Assembly: GCA_012512505.1 (NCBI GenBank) | Contig: JAAZEB010000116.1 | Span: 1 to 49,096, forward strand | Length of the DNA stretch: 49,096 bases | Source: Armatimonadota bacterium | GTDB taxonomy: Bacteria; Armatimonadota; JAAZEB01 | Direction: 5' to 3' | Shown: in pieces, positions 7,694 to 13,639 of the stretch | Numbering within the stretch: the first letter of the stretch is position 1 | Layout of the letters: the number at the start of each line of letters is the position of its first letter | Position numbers and translations under genes: made by a program | Notes under the pieces: model-generated | The model's database searches: none | The model's input: the letters and a program-made list of their open reading frames with translations, nothing else | Told to the model about the DNA's origin: nothing

Positions 7694-7721
7694 GCCCGGG
7701 CGGGTGGCCGTAAACGACGCC
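7694..7721 (+). repeat. Dispersed intergenic repeat, copy 2
   Basis: 28 nt matching 4095-4122: the first 18 nt are identical (GCCCGGGCGGGTGGCCGT) and the remaining ten differ at three positions. Its 3' part overlaps the left arm of the palindrome at 7707-7818. The other copy lies in the leader of the comEA-like gene. Confidence 0.7.
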
Positions 7722-7818
7722 CCTGTCCAAGGGGCAAGCCGACTAAAGCCGGCTAAACCAGCGCTCCGGAGCGTCCCTCAAGGCGCTTGTCCCCAAGGTC
7801 AGGGGCGTCGTTTACGGC
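7707..7818. repeat. 112-bp element with 19-bp perfect inverted repeats
   Basis: Left arm 7707-7725 and right arm 7800-7818 are exact reverse complements (GCCGTAAACGACGCCCCTG and its complement). The 74-nt interior holds GCCGACTAAAGCCGGC. It lies between convergent genes. The right arm plus its flank (7808-7820) matches 13 nt of the repeat at 4110-4122. It sits 3 nt from a heptamer array. Confidence 0.8.
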
Positions 7819-7821
7819 GCC

Positions 7822-7870
7822 CTGACACCTGACACCTATCACCTGACACCTATCACCTCACACCTGACAC
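7822..7870. repeat. Heptanucleotide tandem repeat array (7 units, CTGACAC type)
   Basis: Seven uninterrupted 7-bp units: CTGACAC, CTGACAC, CTATCAC, CTGACAC, CTATCAC, CTCACAC, CTGACAC. All fit CT-N-N-CAC, with variation confined to positions 3-4. A related array on the other strand is at 13482-13523. Confidence 0.9.
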
Positions 7871-7910
7871 CTGCTGGTTCAGCACTCTGGGCGGGTGATG
7901 CCAGGTGGGG

Positions 7911-8920
7911 TCACGCCTGGGCGAGGTACTCCTTGCCGGAGGCAGGGTTGTTCACGCAGCCGATCGGCACGCCGCGGCGGAGGCCGCCAAAGCAGGCCTC
8001 GCTGCACTCGGTGCAGGCGATGATCTCGCCTAGCCGGCCGTCGCGTACCTTGGTCGGCCAGTGGGCGTCGGCGATCAACTGCCGGCCGAGGGCCACCAGG
8101 TCACACTTCCCCTCGCGCAGGGCGGCCTCCGCCCGGGCGACCTCCCGCATCCCGTTCACCGCGATCACCGGCACCGAAACCGCCTGCTTCACCGCCGCGG
8201 CCAGCGCCGCGTGCTCGCCGTGCGGCCCGATGCTGGGGGAGATGTCCAGCACGTCGACCCCGGCATGGACCAGCTCCGGCATGAACTGGAGCGTGTCGGC
8301 GAGCGAGTAGCCCCCAGGGGCATCCTCCTGGGGAGTGTGGCGGTAGAGGAGGAGCAAACGGTCGCCCGCAGCGGCGCGGATGGCACGCACGATCTCCAGG
8401 CCGAGGCGCATCCGCCCGGCGAGCCCGTCGCCGTAAGGTCGCGGCGCTGGTTGGTGCGCGGCGAGAAGAACTGGTTCAGCAGGAAGCCATGCGCCCCGTG
8501 CGGCTCCACGCCGTCGAAGCCGGCATCGGCGCAGACGCGAGCGGCGTGCGCGTAGTCGGCCACAATGCGCTCGATCTCCGCCGCCGTCACCTCCCGCGCG
8601 CTCCCGCCGCCGGTGACGGCGACCGCTTCACCGCCGATGTCGGCCGGCTGATGCAGTTGCACGACGATGGCGGCGCCCTCCGCGTGGACTGCCCGCGCCA
8701 GCGCCGGTAGCCCCGCCACGAACGCCGGGTCGTGGAAGCTGGCCAGCCACGTCGACTCGACGATCACCAGGCCAACGCCACCGCGGGCCCGCTCGCGGTA
8801 CCAGCAGATGCCCTGCTGGCTGGTGATGCCCATATTGCTCACCATCGGCGCCATCACGATGCGGTTGCGCAGCGTCACCTGGCGCAGCGACAGGGGTTGG
8901 AACAGGGGGCTCTGCTGCAT
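7911..8920 (-). pseudogene. Frameshifted Old Yellow Enzyme-family flavin oxidoreductase with 4Fe-4S motif
   Basis: Two overlapping frames together encode one OYE-type TIM barrel of about 336 residues. Residues from 8920 (PLFQPLSLRQVTLRNRIVMA) run to FFSPRTNQRRD, and the protein continues one frame over as GRMRLGLEIVRAI to the stop at 7911. Inserting one C in the GACCTTACG context near 8437 would restore RRDPYGDGLAGRM. The C-terminus has CX2CX3CX11C (CTECSEACFGGLRRGVPIGC), the 4Fe-4S motif of 2,4-dienoyl-CoA reductase/TMA dehydrogenase relatives, but stops at once without the FAD/NAD domain. The start is 9 nt after the UROD-like stop, with GGAGAAGGA between. It may be a true pseudogene or a sequencing error. 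Confidence 0.85.
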
Positions 8921-12409: not shown

Positions 12410-13480
12410 ATGGACAAGGTAAGACTGGGAGTCATCGGTTGTGGCAACATGAGCAGGATCCACCTGGCGACGGTGGGCGGCAAGTCGGAGCATACCGCTC
12501 CTGAGCTACTCCCCTTCGCCCGGCAGACCGAGGTCTACGGCCTCGCCGACGTCAATCTGGCGCATGCCGAGGCGCACCGGCAGGCCTACGGCGGTGAGTA
12601 CATCACCGACGACCCGGAGCGGATCTTCACCGACCCCAACATCGACGCGGTGCTGATCAGCACCTGGCACGATACGCACGCACCCTACTCGCTGCGGGCG
12701 CTGGAGTGCGGCAAGCATGTGTTGATCGAAAAGCCGATGGCGATGACCGAGCAGGAGTGCGACGACATCGTCGCCGCGGTGGAGCGCACTGGCCTGAAGT
12801 ACATGGTCGCCTTCCGCTGCCGTTTCGCTCGGGGCACCAAGGACATCAAGCGCGAGTTTCCCCAGCCGGACAACATCATCGCCCACGCCCGTTTCGGCTC
12901 GATCTGGCCGGAGGGAATCTGGCCCCAGGACCCGATCAAGGGTGGCGGGCAGATCCTCTCGCAGGGCTGCCACATCGTTGACTTGATGTTCCACCTGGCC
13001 GGCTCCGAGCCGGAGTCGGTTTACGCCGTGGGGGGCGTCTACCACCACTCGCGACCGGACGTGATCGATACGATCAACGCCTCGGTGCGCTTCCAGAACG
13101 GGAGCGTGGGGGCCTTCCTGGGGGGCGACGGCGGCACCGGCGGCATCCTGGCCAGCCACCCGCTTCCCTGCGGCTGCCCCTTCTTCGTGATGGTGGTGGA
13201 CAAGGGGCGCAGCGCCCTCGCCATCGACCATGGCCACGACGCCCGCTTTGAGTCGGGAGTGCCGGAAGCTGAATGGAAGCCTCCATACGCCGAGCGCGTC
13301 TACTCGCAGGAGCTGGGCGAGAACCCGGCCTCCGGCCTGTCGGACATCCTGCCGACCTTCGCGCGCTGCATCCTGAAGGACGAGGAAGTGCCGGCGACGG
13401 CGGTGGACGGAGCCCGCACCACGCGCTTCATCCTGAAGTGCTTCGAGTCGGCGCGCACCGGGCGCGTGATCCGCTTCTGA
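12410..13480 (+). CDS. Gfo/Idh/MocA-family NAD(P)-dependent oxidoreductase
   Basis: 356 residues, cytoplasmic. The Rossmann motif VRLGVIGCGNMSRIH opens the protein, and GKHVLIEKPMAMT (about 103-115) holds the EKP lysine used in catalysis by the family. The C-terminal domain has GGGQILSQGCHIVDLMFHLAG, where the His of GCHxxD is the usual catalytic His/Asp region. These enzymes oxidise or reduce sugars, inositols or glycoside hydroxyls; the substrate cannot be read from sequence. It differs from the GH109-type gene at 6315 in lacking a Tat signal and GGHGG. The motif GGGACCCTCCCGCCGAA at 12286-12302 upstream resembles one before the SnoaL-like gene. A heptamer array starts 1 nt after the stop. 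Confidence 0.9.
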   Translation: MDKVRLGVIGCGNMSRIHLATVGGKSEHTAPELLPFARQTEVYGLADVNLAHAEAHRQAYGGEYITDDPERIFTDPNIDAVLISTWHDTHAPYSLRALECGKHVLIEKPMAMTEQECDDIVAAVERTGLKYMVAFRCRFARGTKDIKREFPQPDNIIAHARFGSIWPEGIWPQDPIKGGGQILSQGCHIVDLMFHLAGSEPESVYAVGGVYHHSRPDVIDTINASVRFQNGSVGAFLGGDGGTGGILASHPLPCGCPFFVMVVDKGRSALAIDHGHDARFESGVPEAEWKPPYAERVYSQELGENPASGLSDILPTFARCILKDEEVPATAVDGARTTRFILKCFESARTGRVIRF

Positions 13481-13481
13481 G

Positions 13482-13523
13482 GTGTCAGGTGCCAGGTGTC
13501 AGGTGAAGGGTGGTAGGTGATAG
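13482..13523. repeat. Heptanucleotide tandem repeat array (6 units, reverse orientation)
   Basis: Units on the plus strand: GTGTCAG, GTGCCAG, GTGTCAG, GTGAAGG, GTGGTAG, GTGATAG. Read on the minus strand these are CTGACAC-type heptamers as at 7822-7870. The array abuts the stop of the oxidoreductase gene and ends 5 nt before the palindrome at 13529. Confidence 0.85.
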
Positions 13524-13528
13524 GGTTC

Positions 13529-13603
13529 GTAGGGGCGAAACAACCGGCGTGTCTCACCTTGGTGCCTGCGCGTCGATAGGGCTGCCGGTTGCTTCGCCCC
13601 TAC
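13529..13603. repeat. 75-bp palindromic element, copy A (GTAGGGGCGAA ends)
   Basis: 20-bp arms 13529-13548 and 13584-13603 are reverse complements with one mismatch; the outer sequence is GTAGGGGCGAA and the arm interior CAACCGGC/GCCGGTTG. Copy B at 32790-32864 has exactly the same total length and the same ends but a different inner arm. Confidence 0.85.
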
Positions 13604-13609
13604 TGTTGA

Positions 13610-13639
13610 GTACGGGTAGCCTTTGAGGGCTACCCGTAC
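13610..13639 (+). promoter_or_regulatory. Perfect 12-bp stem-loop in the leader of prepilin 1
   Basis: GTACGGGTAGCC (13610-13621), loop TTTGAG, GGCTACCCGTAC (13628-13639). No T-run follows, so it is not a standard terminator of the upstream gene. It lies 115 nt before the prepilin ATG and could be an RNA processing or stability element. Confidence 0.5.

Follow-up and report, generated by a model that had tools for sequence, protein, structure and literature searches.

The stretch of Armatimonadota DNA analysed here (the window; 49,096 nucleotides, 69% GC) has two loci at which a long palindrome lies beside a tandem array of heptamers. The original prediction took this pairing to be a mobile or replication-slippage element of its own. 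The two loci raise the question of whether palindrome and heptamers belong together, and, if they do, what kind of element they form and how its two parts arise.

Two palindromes with adjoining heptamers

An inverted-arm search, TRF and folding found palindromes and adjoining heptamers at both loci, just as claimed (Table 1). The inverted arms measure 28 nt each at locus 1 (89% complementary, around a 56-nt loop) and 20 nt each at locus 2 (13529-13548 and 13584-13603, 95% complementary), and both palindromes are far more foldable as DNA than their shuffles (z-scores of -5.2 and -6.5, respectively). The 75-bp type A body of locus 2 has one feature of a MITE, terminal inverted repeats (its 20-nt arms) on a short, non-coding element. 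Paired units CTNNCACCTNNCAC had 13 matches in the window, about four times the 3.1 expected from shuffling. Relative to the palindrome, the heptamers of both loci are directed alike, in line with the original prediction, and this polarity also holds genome-wide.

Kinship of the two palindromes had been suggested by a shared AGGGGCG core. The letters are indeed present in both, but they lie at the outer end in locus 2 (GTAGGGGCG..) and the inner end in locus 1 (..CAGGGGCGTCG), and thus run in opposite directions relative to the array; moreover, a count over the window with up to one mismatch gave 33 occurrences of GTAGGGGCG, where 23 were expected. As the core is reversed, and common in this window of 69% GC, it is no evidence for kinship, and we rejected that relationship. 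GC skew in the window, looked at for a replication-strand test, was approximately zero with changes of sign. A pilin-like DUF1559 protein is encoded nearby and pointed to Armatimonadota; in support of that phylum, a locus from a genome assigned to it has 1786 40-mers in common with Armatimonadetes bacterium 55-13.

Table 1. Features of the two loci in the window, and palindromic bodies that bear the heptamer tail
Feature	Position	Strand	Description
Type B palindromic body (locus 1)	7707..7818	+	Arms 7707-7734 and 7791-7818; folding; genome matches of right arm
Heptamer tail (locus 1)	7821..7873	+	CCTGACA/CACCTNN units, directed away from palindrome; TRF period 7
Open frame	7911..8411	-	Stop codon faces locus 1 tail at 38 nt
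GFO/IDH/MocA oxidoreductase gene	12410..13480	+	Stop TGA 13478-13480 abuts distal end of locus 2 tail
Heptamer tail of type A element (locus 2)	13480..13526	-	Six CACCTNN-like units plus junction ACCCTAT
Type A palindromic body (locus 2)	13529..13603	-	GTAGGGGCGAAGCAACCGGC..GCCGGTTGTTTCGCCCCTAC; inverted arms, folding, genome copies
Perfect hairpin adjoining type A body	13610..13639	not assigned	12-nt arms GTACGGGTAGCC/GGCTACCCGTAC
Body type A			GTAGGGGCGAAGCAACCGGC
Body type A'			GTAGGGGCGAAGCATTGGCGGGTC; outer 13 bases in common with type A
Body type B			GTAAACGAC..GTCGTTTACGGC
Body type C			CATTGGCGTC..GGCGGCCGGCC
Body type D			AGCGAAGCGAAGGATCT hairpin group

One heptamer tail on several palindromic bodies

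We searched the assembly, a 5.66 Mb Armatimonadota MAG of 96.9% completeness, in which three CACCTNN units in a row occurred 316 times, against 0 in a reversed control. The tandem 7-bp units are dispersed between genes, in arrays that are intergenic or overlap the ends of genes predicted with a purpose-made codon-usage gene caller. Flanks were compared for a sample of 75 arrays with at least three units each, which misses some arrays whose preceding seven bases start with CA. For 68 of the 75 arrays, the 150-nt flank on the palindrome side recurred at other loci of the set, with a match reaching to within 25 nt of the array in 64, whereas the 147-nt flank on the far side recurred in 7 of 75, mostly composites with two arrays. 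A simple stem score of at least 11 was reached by 28 of 74 upstream flanks, versus 3 of 74 downstream flanks and about 5 of 300 random stretches of the window. Because the upstream flank recurs so much more often than the downstream one, the heptamer array is the 3' end of repeat elements, with unique DNA beyond it, and not a free-standing microsatellite.

Palindrome plus array is therefore a recurrent composite, as had been proposed. Adjacency across the genome holds in one direction: arrays seldom occur without a repeat element, but palindromes lacking arrays are common. Of 32 type A bodies found by their own sequence, 22 carried a single outward array and 10 carried none, and type B right arms (n = 38) were divided into 19 with and 19 without an array; allowing up to three mismatches, the type B right arm has 44 genome matches. 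For type A, 20 of the 22 single-sided arrays lie on the side of RAACCC, a non-palindromic linker between the body and its continuation. This linker leads into an array in 24 of 32 cases and into a second hairpin (..GTGCCCGAGCCATCGGGC), the alternative to the heptamers, in 7 of 32, a modular build with two alternative continuations that resembles that of BIMEs. In seven type A palindromes without an array, the 3' end is instead a common module that contains a second hairpin, GGAGTGCCCGAGCCATCGGGC.

At least five distinct bodies bear the tail, every one with CACCT pointing outward; these types were separated by eye, since single-linkage clustering fuses the body families. The tail is joined to them at a fixed ..CC/TNNCACCT junction. 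As five or more unrelated bodies bear the same tail, the array must be regarded as a module, a single mobile element behind all the loci is ruled out, and the notion of one element of its own did not hold up. The pairing is a genuine genome-wide composite, comprising about 75 mosaic intergenic repeats, best read as BIME-like bodies with a slippage-evolved heptamer tail.

Several further observations concern the bodies. Another repeat body, TGTCATCCTGAGCGAAGCGAAGGATCTC, precedes arrays at five loci, and at two of these an outward array flanks it on each side. At five loci, type B bodies are followed by GC-rich runs (for example, GGCGCCCGGCACC) that resemble decayed heptamer arrays, with A to G and T to C changes. 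Palindromes of the form GTAGGGGCGAAGC...GCTTCGCCCCTAC are found twice in an unrelated viral contig, L373 (5557-5624 and 7390-7460), so the 13-nt terminus of type A occurs outside this genome.

On the other hand, the arrays might be the target and not the tail, pre-existing near gene ends, with several palindromic elements inserting preferentially at their 5' edge. Three type A copies are flanked on both sides by CACCT in the same direction, as if they lay within an array, 7 of the 75 arrays have no recurrent upstream flank (i.e., a few have no recognised body), and array-only loci exist in other phyla, all of which would fit such a history. Nevertheless, random insertion predicts units on both sides in most cases, while most copies have none on the left, and the RAACCC linker is common to type A copies, which makes the junction part of the element. 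Array-free orthologous gene ends in relatives are compatible with either model. We consider prior arrays an unlikely explanation, although one that retains some weight.

Growth of the tail and its position at gene ends

Among 493 units, CACCT was conserved at 95% or more per position, and the last two bases were GA (35%), AT (23%), GT (12%), AA (10%) and others. Adjacent units differed at positions 6 and 7 in 53% and 52% of cases, respectively, versus 0.5-8% at positions 1-5. When four units were read in fixed phase from the type A junction, which avoids pattern selection inside the units though the set does require an ACCCT junction, 356 of 360 CACCT letters were conserved. Arrays contain 3 to 15 units. 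Unit identity within arrays was 0.305, compared with 0.206 when units were shuffled across arrays (maximum of 1000 shuffles, 0.240), and lag-2 identity was 0.414 versus 0.310, revealing a 14-bp rhythm. Common unit order between loci did not go beyond that in block shuffles, which rules out that whole composites were copied together with their arrays. Local homogeneity, the 14-bp rhythm and locus-specific unit order together indicate that the arrays grow in place, and the unit statistics are compatible with growth by slippage, the part of the original prediction that fares well here. On the unit strand, both at 13480-13526 and genome-wide, AGGTGAT is exactly complementary to AUCACCU, the anti-Shine-Dalgarno sequence at the 3' end of 16S rRNA; this is probably a coincidence.

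Arrays faced a stop codon in 38 cases and a start codon in 35. The distal array end lay a median of 3 nt from the facing stop (28 of 38 within 20 nt, some overlapping it) and 87 nt from the facing start (5 of 35 within 20 nt; Mann-Whitney P = 5e-7). Approximately ten reading frames run into an array and terminate at a TGA or TAG supplied by it. Stops in all three frames were present on the G strand of 37 of 70 arrays versus 15 of 70 shuffles, and on the C strand of 23 of 70 versus 2 of 70.

This tight placement at stops, including the array-derived stops of some ten genes, might be taken to mean that the array is a selected functional site, such as CACCTNN binding sites in a row, a nucleoid or recombination signal, a Shine-Dalgarno-like AGGTG row or a stop-codon cassette. 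The retention of CACCT while NN varies, the excess over shuffles of three-frame stops on both strands, and the similar placement of GGGNATC arrays in Xanthomonas, as given in the excerpted text of PMC4692102, are also consistent with selection. However, stops and starts are faced about equally often, so that neither transcript strand is preferred, arrays are absent from two other genera of the family, array length varies from 3 to 15 units, and the excess of stops follows from TGA and TAG within the units together with a period not divisible by 3. A selected site is, in our view, rather unlikely.

To account for the demonstrated composite structure, polarity, recurrence, locus-specific tails and position at stop codons, we lean, with somewhat better than even confidence, towards BIME-like mosaic elements in which unrelated stem-loop bodies share a slippage-grown heptamer 3' module. 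The REP/MITE-like bodies would have been copied around the genome, while slipped-strand mispairing, in steps of 7 and 14 bp, would lengthen, shorten and homogenise the tail at its own site. Slippage would probably be favoured by polymerase pausing at the adjoining stem-loop while copying the G-rich nascent strand. Selection against gene damage may then have left the elements between genes, with the tail reaching the facing stop codon. Some observations speak against this mechanism: neutral slippage and mutation fail to explain a near-fixed CACCT beside two variable bases, independent slippage alone fails to explain the same heptamer on unrelated bodies, and the Y1_Tnp search found no mobilising enzyme.

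Alternatively, the mobilising machinery could synthesise the tail, with an enzyme adding or copying heptamers at the 3' end of each element, much as non-LTR retroelements produce short-repeat tails found on unrelated SINEs. One tail with one polarity on several unrelated bodies, its site at the boundary between element and target, and a constant CACCT with a variable NN that looks like templated addition with wobble all agree with it. Nevertheless, the transposase search (Y1_Tnp) gave no candidate enzyme, the 14-bp rhythm and local homogenisation indicate later slippage in place, and the same bodies occur in many copies without a tail; such synthesis appears highly improbable. It is likewise improbable that one trans-acting machinery recognises or builds the common tail of unrelated palindromes, which by analogy would be a bacterial parallel to SINEs that carry the tail of a partner LINE. 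If this were true, the outward-CACCT bias in other phyla and phages would reflect the same process.

Distribution and comparison with known repeats

Returning to the heptamer tail, we found no arrays of four units in two other genera of the family, and only 12 of 291 genomes of the phylum had any, none near the 233 matches of this genome; the array expansion is therefore lineage-specific. The GFO/IDH/MocA gene has orthologs in two other genera of the family (80% and 74% identity), which terminate at roughly the same position and are followed by neither array nor palindrome. As their neighbouring genes differ, a clean empty site is ruled out and the comparison shows absence only.

Further afield, CACCTNN arrays occur in many phyla among the matches listed, with 976 triple matches in Symploca sp. 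SIO1C2 and 201 in a groundwater planctomycete. Several genomes of other phyla and phage contigs contain inverted pairs in which AGGTG lies 5' and CACCT lies 3'. The fetched loci comprised 14 outward and 0 inward pairs, and a scan of viral contigs yielded 15 outward versus 6 inward stretches, and two or more of the inward ones look genuine; outward orientation is thus a bias and not a law. Eight uncultured viral contigs have hairpin stems built of AGGTGNN/CACCTNN in several intergenic gaps, and such hairpins often touch the stop codon of the preceding gene. A search of plasmids with a synthetic array gave no match.

Heptamer repeats are common in bacterial intergenic DNA; here, they terminate repeat elements, have a polarity and a fixed junction, and form tails that evolve separately at each locus. 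This provides a natural system for asking whether repeat growth is driven by stem-loops and why variation is confined to two of the seven bases. Inverted heptamer pairs in other phyla and phages have the same polarity, which suggests a general, testable tendency.

Type A starts with GTAG, a foot typical of REPs. Like REP and BIME elements with RAYT transposases (Nunvar et al. 2010, PMC2817692), the elements described here are numerous intergenic palindromes forming mosaics with accessory modules; by contrast, no Y1_Tnp/RAYT gene was found here, and the accessory module is a heptamer tandem array. Y1_Tnp (PF01797) had 0 matches in the 96.9% complete assembly and was positive in 5 of 14 control genomes, the missing 3% leaving a small doubt. 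REP/RAYT membership thus fails on a defining feature and was rejected.

Among heptamers, the G-rich GGGNATC and GGGGA(C/T)T repeats of Xanthomonas and Nostoc (Rehm et al. 2015, PMC4692102) are, in the excerpts of that study, similar in having limited variable position(s), intergenic sites and genome-wide spread. According to the same excerpts, Xanthomonas GGGNATC arrays have the gene-end placement seen here, and 70-75 pairs of GGGAATC arrays, whose G-rich repeats converge to form inverted repeats, have the polarity of the AGGTG..CACCT pairs of CACCTNN arrays. The excerpted text also reports a general absence of association with mobile elements and describes no arrays on one side of repetitive palindromic bodies, whereas several families of such bodies occur here. 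As the AGGTGNN unit has a GG pair only, and not the tract of at least three G of standard G-quadruplexes, it falls outside the GGGNATC quadruplex family, which it nonetheless resembles in placement and polarity; judging from the unit sequence, a two-tier quadruplex is possible.

The TAACTGA direct repeats of Beggiatoaceae, Cyanobacteria and Bacteroidetes (MacGregor 2015, PMC4679880) are, in the portion of that paper considered, likewise intergenic 7-bp repeats, patchy across phyla, with 7-nt length steps and repeat-borne stops. They differ from CACCTNN in their unit and, in Guaymas Maribeggiatoa, in lying mostly upstream of starts, and palindrome families are not described in that portion. Compared with these published sources, as excerpted, in which the nearest counterparts are arrays without described palindromic bodies, what is new is the composite form, heptamer arrays fused to REP/MITE-like palindromes.
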